Virus record (IMG/VR): IMGVR_UViG_3300035698_008285
Span: 1-23,631 of that record
Reading direction: 5' to 3' (one strand)
From: a virus
Length of the DNA stretch: 23,631 bases
In this document: in pieces, positions 11,598 through 23,516 of the stretch
How the letters are laid out: every line of letters starts with the position of its first letter
Numbering within the stretch: position 1 is the stretch's first letter
Notes under the pieces: generated by a model
The model's database searches: none
Seen by the model: only the letters and a program-made list of their open reading frames with translations
What the model was told of the DNA's origin: nothing
Translations under genes and position numbers: made by a program

Positions 11598-12292
11598 TGT
11601 ATGATTCCTTTTTCTGCAGGGTACAGCACATAATCCCATCCATTATTACCTAACCACCTTATTTGATAATCCCACACAGATAAGAAGATTAAAATAGCTC
11701 TCATGTGTATGGTCTGACTAATTTCTGCAACTACTATAGGTCGTGTGGAAGTTATAACTTGAATGGCTCCTTTCAGTATCTCCAGTTCCTGACCTTCTGT
11801 ATCTATTTTGATAACACTTATAGTGGGCTTGCCTTCCTTCTCCCAAATGGAATCCAAAGTCATACCTACCACCATAACATCATCATCTTTGTTTTTTTTA
11901 GAACGACCACACGCACCTACATTCGGGTAATTTCCCAGCTCCATTCTATTCATAGGAAAGATGCATGGCTTATCTGTTGCTCCCACTTGAAATACGTCCA
12001 CCTTATCTCGTATGCAATTCAAGTCCAGATTTCTTTTTAACCAATCCTGAACCATAGGGTTTGGCTCAATAGCTATTACCCTGCGACTGTTACGAGCTAG
12101 TAAAACAGTTTGCATTCCTATGCAAGCACCAACATCAATTGACCACTTCTTTGGATTACTGTACTTTTCTAAAATCCTTCTCACGTGTGGTTCGTGGTGC
12201 CCATTTCTTATCATGTCACTCATACGTTCATTAGGTAACGTATCAAAAATACCTAAATGACTTTCTACACGCGTGTATTGCAATTTACTCAT
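11594..12292 (-). CDS. FkbM-family SAM-dependent methyltransferase
   Basis: The 232-residue protein has the SAM-binding motif WSIDVGACIGMQTVLLA (around residue 50), then RVIAIEPNP with the acidic residue ending strand 2. Later VIKIDTEGQELEILKGA is the hallmark of FkbM-type O-methyltransferases, which often methylate sugar hydroxyls. The start is the ATG at 12292, overlapping the upstream stop as ATGA, with AAGGA 7 bases before it. It lies between the GT-D/methyltransferase fusion and the GT9-like gene, so it probably modifies the same glycan. Confidence 0.85.
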   Translation of the reverse strand: MSKLQYTRVESHLGIFDTLPNERMSDMIRNGHHEPHVRRILEKYSNPKKWSIDVGACIGMQTVLLARNSRRVIAIEPNPMVQDWLKRNLDLNCIRDKVDVFQVGATDKPCIFPMNRMELGNYPNVGACGRSKKNKDDDVMVVGMTLDSIWEKEGKPTISVIKIDTEGQELEILKGAIQVITSTRPIVVAEISQTIHMRAILIFLSVWDYQIRWLGNNGWDYVLYPAEKGIIQ

Positions 12293-13728
12293 AACGGCTT
12301 CCTTGCTACCCACACTTTATTTCTATAAGATTCTTTCTTGCTCTCATATTGAATAACCTCATGGTAACGTTCAAATTTGAAACCTACATGCTCCAGCAGT
12401 TCGATGAAGGTTTCCACCGAAGGACAGAACAGATGAGCAGGCATACTTCCCATTCGTTTATGTGTTTCGAACTCCATGATGCGTACACGTCCATTCGCAT
12501 TCGGCATTACAATACATAGCCATCCTCCCGGCTTAAGTGAACGATGCATCTGACCCAATGCAATATACGGAGCGGGTGAATGCTCCATCACATGACTCCC
12601 AAAGACCAAACCATACCTCTCGACCCATGCATTCGACATGCAATGCATATCACCAACGTGAACCCGCTTAATTCCATTCTTATGGAGTAGTTCTTTTTCT
12701 TCTTCAAAAGGAGTGAGACATTCAATACAGTCTCCAAATTTCTTTTGTAGTTCCAGTGCTTCCCATCCTCCTGCAGCACCAACGTCCAGCACAGGGCCAT
12801 CAATCTTTGACGGTATTAAATCCATGATTGCTAATCGTGGGCTTAGTGCTCCAGGCGTCTTCTCTAGTTTTATTGGCAAACCCTCATCCATGTTTGGAAG
12901 CTTCTGAAGAAACGACGGTATAAGATCTGCATGACCCACACACCATTCAGGTCGAGGATTTTCATCTACTCCATCAGCAACCGCAAGACTCTTCTCCATG
13001 GATTGTGTATGTTCAGGCTTCTTATATGCCGACCTGCTTTTCACTCCAACCCATGGATCCCATATTGCTCCCATATCAAGCAGATGGCATGCTCGTCGAT
13101 CTTCAGCTAACTGTGAAATCATAGGCTTCGCTGCCATTCCGCAACAGAAGAGAACGATCTGTGGTCTATCCTTGACTATTGCAGCACGAACCCGTTCTAA
13201 GGTCTTCTCATAGTCATTCCACATATTCACCGCGAGTGTTTCAATAAATGTGAATGGAAAAACAGGTAGATCTTTCAGGTGAGGCCCTCCAACAATCATC
13301 ATCTTCCGTTCACGGAATAGTTTTATAAGTGGCCCCATCCCTCCATGACAGTTAGCTGCAGCTGTTATCTCTTTATGAACCCAAGGAATGTTTATGCAGC
13401 CTTCCGGTGAAGAAACTTCAATATCCATACCCCATAGTTCTGGAATGGACGAATTCAATCTTTGAAGCCATTGCTTTACTTCGGGATATAGCTTCTGCCC
13501 ACAGTTGAATCCATAATACGTCAAATTATTGCGTGTTAAGCATCGTCTCAGAGCTGTGCTCAGTTCCATATAATAAACACCACCCTGACTATTAGCTCCC
13601 TTCTTCCCTAATAAGCAACTGAACTCACCATCACCGAAGTTAGCTTGACTGATAAACTGATCGCTCGCTAACATGCTCACGTAATGTTGGATAGACTTTG
13701 GATGGTAAATTAAATCAAGTTTAGTCAT
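12289..13728 (-). CDS. Bifunctional GT-D glycosyltransferase (DUF1792-like) fused to SAM methyltransferase
   Basis: The 479-residue protein has two domains. Residues 1-250 carry the FGDGEF motif (31-36) near the start and IVLFCCGMAAKPMISQL with LLDMGAIWDPW near the end, the pattern of GT-D fold (DUF1792) glycosyltransferases such as SP_1767. Residues 300-479 are a class I methyltransferase of the Methyltransf_11 type: GPVLDVGAAGGWEAL (311-325), GLVFGSHVMEHSP and a SLKPGGWLCIVMPN loop. The linker is Pro-rich (about 255-300). The fusion suggests that one polypeptide adds a sugar and methylates it or a neighbour. AGGAG lies 9 bases before the ATG. The order of activities is inference. Confidence 0.8.
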   Translation of the reverse strand: MTKLDLIYHPKSIQHYVSMLASDQFISQANFGDGEFSCLLGKKGANSQGGVYYMELSTALRRCLTRNNLTYYGFNCGQKLYPEVKQWLQRLNSSIPELWGMDIEVSSPEGCINIPWVHKEITAAANCHGGMGPLIKLFRERKMMIVGGPHLKDLPVFPFTFIETLAVNMWNDYEKTLERVRAAIVKDRPQIVLFCCGMAAKPMISQLAEDRRACHLLDMGAIWDPWVGVKSRSAYKKPEHTQSMEKSLAVADGVDENPRPEWCVGHADLIPSFLQKLPNMDEGLPIKLEKTPGALSPRLAIMDLIPSKIDGPVLDVGAAGGWEALELQKKFGDCIECLTPFEEEKELLHKNGIKRVHVGDMHCMSNAWVERYGLVFGSHVMEHSPAPYIALGQMHRSLKPGGWLCIVMPNANGRVRIMEFETHKRMGSMPAHLFCPSVETFIELLEHVGFKFERYHEVIQYESKKESYRNKVWVARKPL

Positions 13729-18385: not shown

Positions 18386-19945
18386 TTATGGCCCGAGGAG
18401 TCCGACGAAGAAATCATGGATTTCTTTCGGAAGTAATTTCCCATTCACACCATAGTCCTTATGGGTAAATGAACAGAAAGACTCAGCAAACAGTTCTGAT
18501 GAGCTGCTTGCTCCATACTCTGAAACATTCTTAATCACAAAATCAGCTCCATCTCGAAATACTTCATCTTGAACTATATCCCATACACTGCGATCCCACC
18601 TTTTTAATTGGCGTTCCGCACAATGACCTAGTTCATGCCGAAAACTTCCAGACGATGTATTATCAACATTATACTTACCAAACCGTAGCCCACGATTAGG
18701 TTTACTATTACCAAAAGGAATTCTCATCTCCTGCATAGAATCCCACCACGTACCAACAGTTCCTTTCTCAACTACATACCGTGTCGGTGCAGCTTGCATC
18801 TCCTTTATAAAATTGAGGATGGGTTTAATCGCATCTTTTTTGATATACTCATTGCCCTTTCTCATCCTATAAATTTCATCTGTAATATCGTCTATTCGCT
18901 TCTTAGTCTCTTTTGAAACCCATCCAATATCCTTAATCTTTTTCGTATCAACCCCTTCTATTACTTTTATAAATGGTTTTTTTGGATCACACGCTGCTTC
19001 CATTCTTGCCAAAGATTCCGCACAGTGTATATTACCTGTGCTCTTCTCTAGTTCTCTGATCCGAGCTATAACTGGATCCCGACGCGATATAGCACCTGCC
19101 AGATCTTTCTTTGACTTAGCCATCCGTTTATCTTTAGCCTTCTCAAGTTCTTTCTTTAGATCCTTTGTCCTTTTTGGAGGTTTACGAACAACTGGTTTTT
19201 TCTTTGGATATCGTTTACGCTTTGGCTTCGGGGTTTCTATTGGAGGTTTAGTTTTCTTCTTTGGTATTGTTTTCGGTACTGCTGTGGATGTAGGGGTTTT
19301 CTTTTTCCGAGGATATTTCTTTCTTGGAGTGACCAGAGTGCCATCCGGGTTTCTTTTTCTTGGGTAATATTTACGCTTCTTCTTCGACCGTAGTGGGTTT
19401 AGCCCACCCGGAACAACAGGAGACACAGGCTGAACCGTCGGTGGTAACTCAGTAGGCAAAATGGATTCAACTCGCTGGGCAGGTTGTCTCTTTGGAAACT
19501 TTACTTTCTTTGCTTTTGCTGGAGCGGTCTTTTTACCTCGGAGGAGGTCTTTTCCGGCCCAAGTGCTTTGACGCTTCTTGCTAGCGAGAGATCCCTTGAC
19601 CCGTTCCTTATCGATACTTCGGTTGACAGCATCACGCAAGTCTTCCTTCGGGGTTGCAGCTGTGATCGGTTCCGGAACCCAAGCACATCGACAGCTCGGA
19701 TGACGAGGAATCAGGCCTCGGGCCTCTTCCACCTTCATGATCTCACCTTCCATCGACGCACACATCCCACAATTATGTACCAATACATCATCCACATAAT
19801 ATTCAGGATTACTATCAACTTTCTTGTTGTAAACATATACCCTTCCATGTATAATGGATACTATCAGATGACAAACACGAAGGAGATTATAGAAATGGCG
19901 TTTGAATTTACATGCAATCAATGTGGTGTTGTATTTACAAGACAT
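18386..19945 (-). CDS. Mu F/SPP1 gp7-like head protein, C-terminal half with C-intein and zincin-like domain
   Basis: The 519-residue product begins with a C-terminal intein fragment (about residues 27-58), ending DDVLVHN just before Cys59, the first residue of the rejoined head protein. Residues 59-91 complete the Mu F motif (CGMCASMEGE, then PRHPSCRCAW). Next comes a long basic low-complexity linker with repeated Y-P-[KR]-K units (about 130-260). The C-terminal domain has HELGH (437-441) and, later, SSSELFAESF, the zincin pattern of an HExxH metal site plus a downstream Glu. Spliced to the first half it gives about 710 residues. The start codon is uncertain: ATG at 19945 is chosen, with a TTG two codons earlier; neither has a good ribosome binding site. 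Confidence 0.75.
   Translation of the reverse strand: MSCKYNTTLIACKFKRHFYNLLRVCHLIVSIIHGRVYVYNKKVDSNPEYYVDDVLVHNCGMCASMEGEIMKVEEARGLIPRHPSCRCAWVPEPITAATPKEDLRDAVNRSIDKERVKGSLASKKRQSTWAGKDLLRGKKTAPAKAKKVKFPKRQPAQRVESILPTELPPTVQPVSPVVPGGLNPLRSKKKRKYYPRKRNPDGTLVTPRKKYPRKKKTPTSTAVPKTIPKKKTKPPIETPKPKRKRYPKKKPVVRKPPKRTKDLKKELEKAKDKRMAKSKKDLAGAISRRDPVIARIRELEKSTGNIHCAESLARMEAACDPKKPFIKVIEGVDTKKIKDIGWVSKETKKRIDDITDEIYRMRKGNEYIKKDAIKPILNFIKEMQAAPTRYVVEKGTVGTWWDSMQEMRIPFGNSKPNRGLRFGKYNVDNTSSGSFRHELGHCAERQLKRWDRSVWDIVQDEVFRDGADFVIKNVSEYGASSSSELFAESFCSFTHKDYGVNGKLLPKEIHDFFVGLLGP
19772..19867 (-). other. C-terminal split-intein fragment (blocks F and G)
   Basis: The 32 residues from LIVSIIHGR through VYVYNKKVDSNPEYY to VDDVLVHN match intein block F (V-Y-x-x-x-V) and block G (V-H-N followed by Cys). 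The last Asn would cyclise, and the next residue, Cys at 19769-19771, is the C-extein nucleophile. This is close in size to known split C-inteins of about 35 residues. Confidence 0.85.
19827..19855 (+). promoter_or_regulatory. Predicted sigma-70-type promoter for the endonuclease gene
   Basis: TTGTAA (19827-19832) and a perfect TATAAT (19850-19855) are separated by 17 bases, about 40 bases before the endonuclease ATG and pointing the same way. On the other strand these bases code for the C-intein segment (the two Ile of SIIHG are the -10 box). Such a promoter would express the endonuclease independently of the late operon. Confidence 0.6.
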
Positions 19946-20758
19946 AGTCAATCCCGTTCAAACAGGTGTAAAATAACAAACCACTATTATTGTAGTGGTG
20001 TTTGTTATCATAAAGCATGCCAAAAGCAGAAAACAATAAAATGTATTGAATGCAGAAAGGTGTTTTTGCCATCAAGACCCAGAAAGTTCTGTTCATGGGA
20101 ATGCTATAGTAACCATAAATCAAGAAATGGAAGAGTCGAAAAAATATGTGTGTTATGTGGCTCCAAATTCTCATGTAAACAATCATCATCAAAAAAAAGA
20201 ATTCACTGCCAAAAATGTGTGAAATATATTTCAAATCACCGCAAATACTCTTGGATAAGGTGTCAAACATGTGGGAAGCGGACACAACAAAAACACTCTG
20301 ACATCCAACGCGGTAATATACGAACCCACTGCTCTGAAGAATGCAGGAGACCTCCCCAATACACAAATTGTAAAACTTGTGGAAAGAGATTCCGACACAC
20401 CCCCTCAAAGAAAAATCCATTCTGCTGTTTCTCATGCTACCGTAAATACAAAGGAGAAACAAAACCAGAAGCAAAAGTACGTCGGGCTTTATCATCACTT
20501 GGTATCTCCTTTATCCAAGAACATGCAATCGGACGGTACAGTATTGATTTTTTCCTGACCGATTTGAATCTTGCCCTTGAAGTAGACGGGGAGTATTGGC
20601 ATGAGCAAACCAAAGAACGCGATCTGAAGCGAGACAAAAGTCTTTTGAAAAAAGGAATACCGACCATACGAATCACCGACACAGAAATTGAAAACATGAA
20701 TAACCGCAGACGATGTATTATGAGTATTCTGAAGAAGCATTCCCGGAATAATCTTTGA
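19895..20758 (+). CDS. Zinc-finger EDxHD (Vsr-like) homing endonuclease, antisense to the head gene
   Basis: The only convincing plus-strand gene, 287 residues. Residues 1-185 contain five Cys pairs of the C-x-x-C ... C-x-x-x-C kind (for example CNQCGVVF, CIECRKVF, CVLCGSKF, CQTCGKRT and CKTCGKRF), likely zinc fingers for DNA binding. Residues 190-287 form a Vsr/EDxHD-type nuclease: EAKVRRALSSLGISF, YSIDFFL, LALEVDGEYWHEQ and ERDLKRDKSLLKKG with a final IPTIRIT strand, showing the Asp, Glu-x-Asp-Gly and Trp-His of that family. AGGAG is 9 bases before the ATG, with a promoter-like pair upstream. The gene is richer in A/T and AAA/ATA codons than its neighbours, as expected of an acquired mobile element. 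It lies exactly between two split-intein halves, so it probably spreads that insertion by cutting empty copies. Confidence 0.85.
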   Translation: MAFEFTCNQCGVVFTRHSQSRSNRCKITNHYYCSGVCYHKACQKQKTIKCIECRKVFLPSRPRKFCSWECYSNHKSRNGRVEKICVLCGSKFSCKQSSSKKRIHCQKCVKYISNHRKYSWIRCQTCGKRTQQKHSDIQRGNIRTHCSEECRRPPQYTNCKTCGKRFRHTPSKKNPFCCFSCYRKYKGETKPEAKVRRALSSLGISFIQEHAIGRYSIDFFLTDLNLALEVDGEYWHEQTKERDLKRDKSLLKKGIPTIRITDTEIENMNNRRRCIMSILKKHSRNNL

Positions 20759-21721
20759 TGCCTCTACCCATGTATCCCCCACAAAAATAGGGTGATCTTT
20801 CGTACAGATAACCACACCATTCATTGTATTTATTATTATCATTTCACCTGTATAACATCTACAATGACTTTTTAATACTTTTCTAATGCCTCTTCGAGTT
20901 AGAGCATTCTCAATTTTCTTCTGAATAGGAACTAACCCACTCCCAGAATCAATTAAAGTCCACCTTGGAAAACATACCCGATTGTCTCCCGCCGTTAACC
21001 ACTCGGCAAGGACTGTTACCTTACCGACGCCAAGTTCCTTATAGGCATCCAACTGTCCTTCTGCATGAGCAGCAACAACCTCCGTCCGTGCTATCATTCT
21101 TGCACGAGTACGGGTCAAACCTCCAATGCTCTTCGTCATCTTGCGAGCCATAGTCAAAGGGCTTTCTCCATTCGCAAGACCGAGAGCAAGTGTTCTGCTT
21201 ATATCGTTTGCCATCGTGTCAGTAACACCTTTGAGGGAATTGAATGCTCTAGTATATATTGCTTCAATCCGTTTAGTTTCTTCAGCACCTTGAAAACTCA
21301 CTCCGAGCACGTTCCCTGATGGTTTGAGTCGCTGTGCTTCGGGCGTTTTTAAGACATCACCGTACACCTGCTGGTATGCTCTGTTCTGTCCTTTTTTATA
21401 TGCACTCTCAACATAAGGTGCGAGCCATGGGGTTCCCGTAGTATTGCTTGTGGAGAGGATATTCGTATTGACTTGCTGGTCGAGCCACTTACGAAAGGAT
21501 GTGATCTTTTGTGCATCGGTACTGAATCGCCAGACCTGTCGTTCGACGATGTTGAGCTTGAGTGTTGGTGCAGGTTTGAGTCCGAAAGCATCATCCTTAA
21601 TGAGCAGCTCCCGAACGTTCCGAGCGACTATTGCAAATCGCTTATTCATTTCCCGAACGAACCGTAACCGAAGCACAGTTGTTTGAGTGGGATCTCTTTG
21701 GAGTGCTTTTAACTTAGCCAT
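20495..21721 (-). CDS. Mu F/SPP1 gp7-like head protein, N-terminal half with N-intein
   Basis: The 408-residue product has a helical head-morphogenesis N-terminus (1-249), with ARMIARTEVVAAHAEGQLDA and then WLTAGDNRV, the first part of the Mu F motif. At Cys250 it switches to an N-terminal intein fragment: CFPRWTLIDSGSGLVPIQ (block A) and GVVICTKDHPIFVGDTWVEA (block B with T-x-x-H at 307-310). The conserved intein sequence ends near residue 331. The last 77 residues are the reverse reading of the endonuclease gene and look like a chance tail. The ATG overlaps the preceding stop as TAATG. This protein binds the portal or DNA path inside the procapsid in related phages. It needs splicing with the second half to be complete. 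Confidence 0.8.
   Translation of the reverse strand: MAKLKALQRDPTQTTVLRLRFVREMNKRFAIVARNVRELLIKDDAFGLKPAPTLKLNIVERQVWRFSTDAQKITSFRKWLDQQVNTNILSTSNTTGTPWLAPYVESAYKKGQNRAYQQVYGDVLKTPEAQRLKPSGNVLGVSFQGAEETKRIEAIYTRAFNSLKGVTDTMANDISRTLALGLANGESPLTMARKMTKSIGGLTRTRARMIARTEVVAAHAEGQLDAYKELGVGKVTVLAEWLTAGDNRVCFPRWTLIDSGSGLVPIQKKIENALTRRGIRKVLKSHCRCYTGEMIIINTMNGVVICTKDHPIFVGDTWVEASKIIPGMLLQNTHNTSSAVIHVFNFCVGDSYGRYSFFQKTFVSLQIAFFGLLMPILPVYFKGKIQIGQEKINTVPSDCMFLDKGDTK
20729..20974 (-). other. N-terminal split-intein fragment (blocks A and B)
   Basis: From Cys250 (codon 20972-20974), 82 residues fit an intein N-domain: block A with Cys1, block B with the T-x-x-H motif, then WVEASKIIPGMLL, the W-x-x-A...G-x-x-L end of the Hint fold. 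The final part overlaps the 3' end of the antisense endonuclease gene (stop at 20756-20758), so these bases serve both proteins. Confidence 0.85.
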
Positions 21722-22004: not shown

Positions 22005-23516
22005 TTAGTCTTCTTCGTCATCTTCAATATCTTTTTTATTCGGGTCAATACCATCAGGGTTGTTTTTAGCTTCTTCCTTTGCTAACTCCGCAGCTTCTTC
22101 CTCTTCTTCTGCGAGGTACTTTTCAATTTCATCCTGCATATCCTTAACCAGATCTGCATCCAGTCCAATAATATTGATCAAGTACTGGTCAGTCGTCATC
22201 AATCCTTCGACTCCACCCTGCACATATGACTTCATTGCTTCCGTCAGCACCTTAGCCACGTCCGCTTGTTCCTTCTCTGATGGTTCTAGCATGCTTGGCC
22301 ATAACACTTTGAACTTGTCTTCTCCAGGCTGTGGTAGCACAGCTAGATCAATCAATCGCTGAATGAAAGGCCTCACTACGTATGGAGTGAGGTATTGTTT
22401 TTGCCGGGATGCCATACGCTTGGCCCATGCTGTGGCGTCTTGTCCTCCTGCAAGTTTTCCTTCTTCAGTACCCATGAAGATTCTGAACGGAATTCCTTTT
22501 GCAAGTGCTATCAACTTCAACTGACTGGTTATCTGCGGATTCGGATCGACAACCTGTGGAGCAAGCGAATGAACTTTCACACCGACTGTTTTGAGTGCTC
22601 GTTGGAGTCCATTCGTATAATCGAGGAGTTCTGTTTTGAGTGCGTCCGTATCGATCGCATCTGCACCCTGCTCAAGCAATGCAGGATCTACTTCAAAGTT
22701 GAGACCTGGAAAAGCACCCTGCCAATACATTTCTGCGGAACCCCCTGCAACCTTTCGTAAATCTTGAAGGCGATTGAAAACATCACGGAGTCTGCTGATG
22801 CCCACTATGTCACTCATTCGACGGTTATCCGCTAGATGAACGACGCGTGAGAAATGAACTTTCTGTTTGCTTAAGCTGGTAGCTTGCTTGGTGTCGTTAG
22901 CAAAGGTCACAGTATATATAGTCGGTTGTCCGAACCGTTCATTCGTCACATCTTGTTCCGTTGCATCAATCGTTAATACGCTTTCATCAAACACACGAGT
23001 ATATAGCAACTGCAATCCTTCTGAGGGTTCAACAGGTTCATTGAGTTGCTTGCCATCACTGAAGCCAAGCAGAATGATACCATAATCACCAAGACCACTA
23101 AGTATATCCCCACGTGCCATGATCGAGTAGAGATCTTTCTGTTCTTCAAGTTCCCTCCATGCAGTTTCGAATGGAGATTCGTCGGAGGTTTCATTATCCA
23201 CAATATCGGGGTCTTCTTGCCAGCACTCCTCCGGAATGATATGGACTACTCGCTTTGCAAACCCTTCCTTAGTGTACATATCATTATAATCGTTGGATGT
23301 GGGATTGACTACGTAACCACAATCTTCATCGAGGTTTCTACGGGGATCAAGCATCTTCCTCCACAGTTCACTCCTCGTGCTGAGTTCATTTGTCAGCACC
23401 TCTGCAGTACCGCTCAGATGATTGCCCATTAGTCGTGCAGCAATCATTTTCTTTTTGTTTGCAATTACTGCTAGAGCTTTTGTCGAAGGTGTGTTTTTCT
23501 TTGCTTGCTTTGCCAT
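22005..23516 (-). CDS. Phage portal protein, DUF1073-type
   Basis: The 503-residue protein has the length and pattern of DUF1073 portals: an N-terminal helical part, then YTKEGFAKRVVHIIPEECWQ, GDILSGLGDYGIILLGFSD, KVHFSRVVHLADNR, and later GIPFRIFMGTEEGKLAGGQD with ATAWAKRMASRQKQYL, the conserved block before the C-terminal clip and wing segments. The last 60 residues are strongly acidic (AEEEEEAAELAKEE and a DDEED end). It forms the dodecameric ring through which DNA enters. The ATG follows the terminase stop by one base, with AGGAG 13 bases upstream inside the terminase end. Confidence 0.88.
   Translation of the reverse strand: MAKQAKKNTPSTKALAVIANKKKMIAARLMGNHLSGTAEVLTNELSTRSELWRKMLDPRRNLDEDCGYVVNPTSNDYNDMYTKEGFAKRVVHIIPEECWQEDPDIVDNETSDESPFETAWRELEEQKDLYSIMARGDILSGLGDYGIILLGFSDGKQLNEPVEPSEGLQLLYTRVFDESVLTIDATEQDVTNERFGQPTIYTVTFANDTKQATSLSKQKVHFSRVVHLADNRRMSDIVGISRLRDVFNRLQDLRKVAGGSAEMYWQGAFPGLNFEVDPALLEQGADAIDTDALKTELLDYTNGLQRALKTVGVKVHSLAPQVVDPNPQITSQLKLIALAKGIPFRIFMGTEEGKLAGGQDATAWAKRMASRQKQYLTPYVVRPFIQRLIDLAVLPQPGEDKFKVLWPSMLEPSEKEQADVAKVLTEAMKSYVQGGVEGLMTTDQYLINIIGLDADLVKDMQDEIEKYLAEEEEEAAELAKEEAKNNPDGIDPNKKDIEDDEED

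Follow-up and report, generated by a model that had tools for sequence, protein, structure and literature searches.

A Mu F-like head gene in two pieces around an antisense EDxHD endonuclease gene: a probable trans-splicing split intein and its double-coded continuous relatives

How could a phage head protein that is encoded in two separate pieces, with a homing endonuclease gene on the opposite strand between them, be made as one chain, and how did its gene come to be broken? The question was raised by IMG/VR virus record IMGVR_UViG_3300035698_008285, a 23.6-kb virus record that is called the window here (the whole stretch of 23,631 nucleotides that was analysed), in which a minus-strand gene for a Mu F-like head morphogenesis protein is divided in this way. 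We consider it probable that the locus encodes a trans-splicing split intein in the Mu F head gene, derived from a continuous intein that was double-coded with its endonuclease.

The Mu F gene consisted of two open reading frames (ORFs) in the same frame, and translation revealed 15 in-frame stops between them, from 20497 to 19960. The N-half ORF (20498-21721, minus strand) started with ATG at 21721, carried intein blocks A and B at its end and stopped at 20497-20495. The C-half ORF (18389-19945, minus strand) started with an in-frame ATG at 19945 (or TTG at 19951), carried blocks F and G at its start and stopped at 18388-18386. An earlier note on this DNA had described a Mu F-like gene in two separately coded pieces, and its coordinates proved right to a few bases. 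A single sequencing error was ruled out as the cause of the break by the 15 in-frame stops together with an endonuclease frame intact over its full length, and two compensating indels or an assembly error were rejected because that frame aligned along its full length with those of two relatives (L175/L176).

The domain of the Mu F / SPP1 gp7 family is spread over both halves. The N-extein (20975..21721, minus strand) comprised the first 249 residues of the head protein, ending in GDNRV, and matched PF04233 and model positions 3-72 of TIGR01641 (SPP1 gp7); the C-extein (18389..19771, minus strand) comprised 461 residues, running from C+1 and GMCASMEGE on to HPSCRC and beyond, and matched positions 72-108 of the same model. 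The E-value of PF04233 for Mu F was 5.5e-6, and the TIGR01641 score of either half alone was below the curated cut-off. The N-extein was 70% identical to the unbroken Mu F of a related locus (L006).

Both halves of an intein adjoined these exteins. The intein N-part (IntN; 20732..20974, minus strand; 81 residues) began with Cys1 at 20974 and contained block A, CFPRWTLIDSGSGLVPI, and block B, TKDHPIF, within VICTKDHPIF at 20812-20783; it was 37-41% identical to inteins at the same site (L175, L176, L178). IntN was followed by a tail (20498..20731, minus strand), antisense of the endonuclease, that ran up to a triple stop at 20497, and the last residues of this tail, FLDKGDTK, resembled the continuing sense frame of a continuous intein (L252), FLDKGNTKFVQ. 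The C-half opened with a leader (19868..19945, minus strand) that started at the in-frame ATG at 19945, lay antisense of the endonuclease start and was preceded by the last in-frame stop at 19960. The intein C-part (IntC; 19772..19867, minus strand), LIVSIIHGRVYVYNKKVDSNPEYYVDDVLVHN, contained blocks F and G and aligned with same-site inteins; its block F/G stretch, GRVYVYNKKVDSNPEYYVDDVLVHN, ended at 19772, directly before C+1 and GMCASMEGE. Profiles built from 28 other Mu F inteins and 7 at the window's own site matched the N-half with E=3.9e-12 and the C-half with E=1.2e-4, each ranking first when the window was translated in six frames, which bore out the earlier note's assignment of blocks A and B with Cys1 and T-x-x-H to the first piece and of blocks F and G to the second. 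Purpose-built profiles were needed because Pfam and NCBIfam alone gave no convincing intein match; generic libraries were far weaker on the intein (Pfam PT-HINT, E=0.15; PDB 2lwy, E=8e-4).

Removal of IntN and IntC left 249 + 461 = 710 residues; these aligned over their full extent with Mu F of L006 (766 residues), at 45% identity and without a gap at the junction. Among 80 x 60 trial junctions scored against unbroken L006, the best cut points were exactly V249|C+1. The suggestion that joining GDNRV to CGMCASMEGE rebuilds the Mu F motif in a product of about 710 residues thus held to the residue. The split fell inside the CxxC...HPxCRC motif conserved across relatives, before its first Cys, and the splice-site residues C1, T-x-x-H, HN and C+1 were all retained. 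Their retention despite 15 accumulated stops points to continued function of the halves, which are very probably rejoined by trans-splicing, judging from these motifs and the junction.

The homing endonuclease gene between the intein halves (19895..20758, plus strand) encoded 287 residues from its real start, ATG 19895, with Cys-rich zinc-ribbon repeats and an EDxHD (Vsr-like) nuclease domain. Its product matched Vsr, DUF559 and I-Bth0305I (3r3p, E=4e-8), in agreement with the Vsr-like identity and opposite orientation first proposed for it, and the catalytic E, D, ED and H were conserved. It was 40% identical over its full length (E=5e-67) to the antisense endonuclease of L176. The gene lay codon-aligned with the intein (phase 2, as in L066, L030 and the antisense endonucleases of relatives), with a ribosome-binding site, AAGGAG (19880..19885, plus strand), 9 nucleotides before its ATG. 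A consensus scan also placed a sigma70-like site, TTGTAA-17-TATAAT (19827..19855, plus strand; 10 of 12), just upstream of the gene and inside the IntC coding sequence; promoter-like sites in the region were no more numerous than chance by shuffles, and the site is only suggestive of an endonuclease promoter. A scan of genome contigs with the endonuclease gave two weak partial matches and nothing more.

Searches with Mu F alignments produced a series of relatives at the same insertion point, TAGDxRV^CxxC. The site was empty in L003, L004, L006-L009 and many others, held a mini-intein in L178 and L179, an intein with an in-frame sense EDxHD endonuclease in L198 and L215 (the latter running off the contig end), and a continuous intein with an antisense zinc-ribbon EDxHD gene in L175, L176/L177, L251-L253/L255, L254 and L261. 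One insertion site thereby displays empty, mini, sense-endonuclease, antisense double-coded and fractured states. The same-site antisense endonucleases were orthologous to that of the window, with 37-40% identity over nearly the whole length. In every same-site relative examined, Mu F was one continuous protein, uninterrupted or intein-containing, rather than the two independent unspliced proteins that, according to the earlier note, would speak against splicing. An AlphaFold model of the same-site mini-intein L178 had a predicted local distance difference test (pLDDT) score of 94.5 and a Hint fold, with BIL2, CthBIL4 and gp41-1 as matches, the last two among the best.

In continuous inteins, the endonuclease occupied the codon-aligned antisense frame, so that both shared the same DNA and each TTA, CTA or TCA codon in the endonuclease would be a stop in the intein. 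None of these codons occurred in 28/28 antisense endonucleases of continuous inteins. The largest expectation was that for L252 (32% GC), where local codon usage predicted 18.8 such codons and 0 were seen (P=4e-14). As an internal control, a scan with the endonuclease alone yielded 72 classified endonuclease loci, in which intein motifs were found independently of the openness of the frame between them. The endonuclease was free of TTA, CTA and TCA in 39/39 loci with an opposite-strand intein, and at least one such codon was present in 13/13 loci with a same-strand intein and 20/20 without a detected intein; the Fisher P of 3e-21 for 39/39 against 0/33 is only indicative, given that the loci share ancestry and that some are duplicates of one phage. 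Loci with stops in the antisense frame of the endonuclease turned out to be free-standing or sense. Antisense orientation of the endonuclease is the rule in the Mu F gene, and most relatives keep the intein frame open by double coding.

The window departed from this rule. Its endonuclease contained 15 TTA/CTA/TCA codons against 8.4 expected from codon usage, and its intein frame was not open through the endonuclease (15 stops, against 0 in the 39 opposite-strand loci). By sharing site, strand and phase with its relatives while carrying 15 such codons, the window reveals a fractured intein in which the codon constraint has been released; it is a relative, not a member, of the group of inteins double-coded with antisense endonucleases.

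Free-standing relatives of the window endonuclease adjoined the end of an intact Mu F gene, convergently on the opposite strand, in L280, L283, L287, L288 and L311. Long open codon-aligned antisense frames of 226 and 242 codons were present in L280 and L298, respectively, and are perhaps relics of former double coding. L030 and L031 were near-identical, and L030 was without the IntC end and the C-extein start, so that its frame was lost; either a strain deletion or an assembly chimera could explain the loss.

A second Mu F intein site, mostly HPN^CRC, was occupied in L066, L099-L111, L119, L136 and the phage loci L086-L096, and inteins were present at both sites of a single Mu F gene in L271, L274, L296 and L315. 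The antisense endonuclease of the second site belonged to a different family (helix-turn-helix (HTH) plus EDxHD) and was double-coded across nearly the whole intein, its stop lying opposite intein residues 2-23. Substitutions were analysed in seven pairs of second-site inteins; the alignment of their core followed the antisense protein, a choice that favoured this protein somewhat. The substitution peak lay at sense position 3 in the exteins (51%) and the IntC end (57%), and shifted in the double-coded core to sense position 1, the endonuclease's position 3 (46%). Antisense identity exceeded sense identity in the core (60% against 46%) in 7/7 pairs. HintN had an intermediate pattern (39/17/44) with both identities high (62% and 56%), as expected if both strands are constrained. 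In these sequence comparisons, the substitution pattern in double-coded inteins shows selection acting on both strands. Shine-Dalgarno cores preceded 19/28 homologous antisense starts against 15/108 internal ATGs, and a model of the antisense product of L099 matched Vsr (Z 10.9) and I-Bth0305I (Z 9.0). The analysis uncovered a widespread two-strand coding arrangement, also in cultured Salmonella, Klebsiella, Vibrio and Gordonia phages; antisense double coding was present in Aaphi23, LSPA1, AH01, KpTDp1, MSW-3, fEg-Eco06, several Vibrio phages and Sedona. An antisense endonuclease ORF occurred in 11/11 intein-bearing cultured-phage records examined and was annotated in none.

In the mechanism we propose, a Mu F protein interrupted by an intein would now be encoded as two polypeptides, an N-half carrying IntN with a short run-out tail and a C-half carrying a leader and IntC. 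The halves would associate, and trans-splicing would yield a Mu F protein of about 710 residues and release the intein halves. The EDxHD endonuclease between them presumably has a promoter and a ribosome-binding site of its own; it would cleave Mu F alleles that have no intein, which exist (L006-L009), and the whole locus would be copied in. The likely ancestor is a double-coded intein that was still continuous, like those of L175, L176, L252, L254 and L261, in which TTA, CTA and TCA were avoided; once the C-part gained its own start, the codon constraint would have gone and stops could accumulate. More generally, we lean somewhat toward the view that a natural split intein can originate from a continuous one whose DNA also encodes, on the antisense strand, a homing endonuclease: the C-part would acquire its own start, possibly via a coupled ORF chain across the antisense strand of the endonuclease, whereupon the ban on stop codons would be lifted and trans-splicing would become obligatory. 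The origin of natural split inteins is debated, and this route is concrete and testable.

Several observations weigh against this proposal. IntC had DD where relatives had NG, the strand that follows block A in IntN had a 2-residue gap, and a strong ribosome-binding site was absent at the C-half ATG (19945). A second fractured locus was not found in viral and genome scans aimed at Mu F and its inteins. The endonuclease tree gave no resolved order, and the direction from continuous to fractured is set by parsimony. The position of the endonuclease between the halves also fits its fresh insertion into a mini-intein, an event that would have split the intein immediately and would need no double-coded ancestor. 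This origin matches the classic model for fractured genes, in which an endonuclease gene inserts into an intein, and mini-inteins were present at the same site (L178, L179). We nevertheless judge it rather unlikely, as continuous inteins at the same site had orthologous endonucleases in the same strand and codon phase, and the N-half tail still resembled the sense frame of these inteins.

Readings that dispense with a working split intein fared worse. Fission without splicing, in which the Mu F halves are separate subunits and the intein remnants bystanders, could draw on the translatability of both ORFs and on genes in pieces caused by homing endonucleases in phages, such as the nucleotide reductase split by an endonuclease that is cited in PMC10448857; it is improbable given a split inside a conserved motif, splicing residues that outlasted the stops, and continuous proteins in all same-site relatives examined. 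The 15 in-frame stops relative to double-coded relatives, and the finding of a single locus, would also suit decay, with the intein frame broken and Mu F dead in a defective phage or prophage. We find decay hard to credit, because exteins, intein motifs and endonuclease were intact, and N-extein, C-extein and endonuclease were free of frameshifts; the endonuclease used TCA and TTA at least as often as codon usage predicts, which suggests that the break is old, yet the halves remain intact. Rejoining at the RNA or ribosome level in place of protein splicing, whether by an intron, by bypassing or by frameshifting, might be read from the common frame of the halves and from an open ORF in another frame that bridges them. 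However, an intron search found neither a group I/II intron nor any other credible match in Rfam, and RNA joined at the splice points would lose the sequence that codes for the intein, whose motifs are conserved, which leaves this explanation very improbable.

The bridging ORF (19935..20498, minus strand; 187 codons in the other antisense frame) is a post hoc candidate for a translational bridge to the C-half of the proposed split intein. Its start, GTG 20498 or ATG 20495, overlapped the N-half stop (TGATGA) with AAAGGAG 7 nucleotides upstream, and its stop overlapped the C-half ATG at 19945. At least 187 open codons in this frame occurred in 0.16% of synonymous shuffles and a complete bridge in 0/5000, in a test framed after the ORF was seen. 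The ORF was absent from the relatives compared. Hypothetically, the C-half could be translated by coupling through it.

Dassa et al. reportedly described, in 2009, fractured phage genes with split inteins and free-standing Vsr-like (EDxHD) endonuclease genes between the halves, in hosts said to be DNA synthesis and repair enzymes. The window resembles the loci so described in having a conserved phage gene broken by a split intein with a free-standing EDxHD/Vsr-like gene between its parts, and differs from them in its host, a structural head gene. In the window, the endonuclease gene lies antisense, and its intein has continuous relatives that are double-coded. Mu F or minor head inteins have been reported in cultured phages, including E. 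coli vKMB36 (PMC11162368), and minor head gene inteins also in PMC7468147. Those of vKMB36, fEg-Eco06, Salmonella LSPA1 and Aaphi23 belong to the same gene family as the window intein; unlike it, they are unbroken, and most occupy a different site, for example HPN^CRC. In the ShiLan insertion, a hidden out-of-frame HNH endonuclease overlaps the open host frame in another reading frame, as in double-coded inteins, but lies on the same strand, and the intein splicing domain is absent (PMC11855218). Antisense homing endonuclease genes occur in group I introns; I-DsqI is likewise antisense to its host element, which is an RNA intron, so that the opposite strand imposes no coding constraint (PMC9548176). 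I-Bth0305I and Vsr share the EDxHD nuclease domain with the window endonuclease and its relatives by sequence and fold and differ in the DNA-binding parts, which are zinc ribbons in the window endonuclease and HTH in the second-site family. The literature searched held no account of inteins with antisense, double-coded endonucleases, although a preprint on actinobacteriophage inteins of 'non-canonical architecture' (cited in PMC11855218) may give one. The head-gene host, the antisense double coding and the link between the states appear to be new. Protein engineering could also draw on this intein and those related to it as candidates for new split and cis inteins.

The minus strand carried, in this order, the portal gene (22005-23516), a small ORF and the Mu F-like gene. 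The C-terminal part of Mu F, within the C-extein region (18389-19771, minus strand), contained an HELGH (HExxH) motif, of which a similar form was present in the Mu F proteins of L006 and Hardycor1, and may represent a metallopeptidase domain. Elsewhere in the window, among phage genes, positions 12289-13728 (minus strand) encoded a protein that combines a GT-D-like region with a methyltransferase domain.

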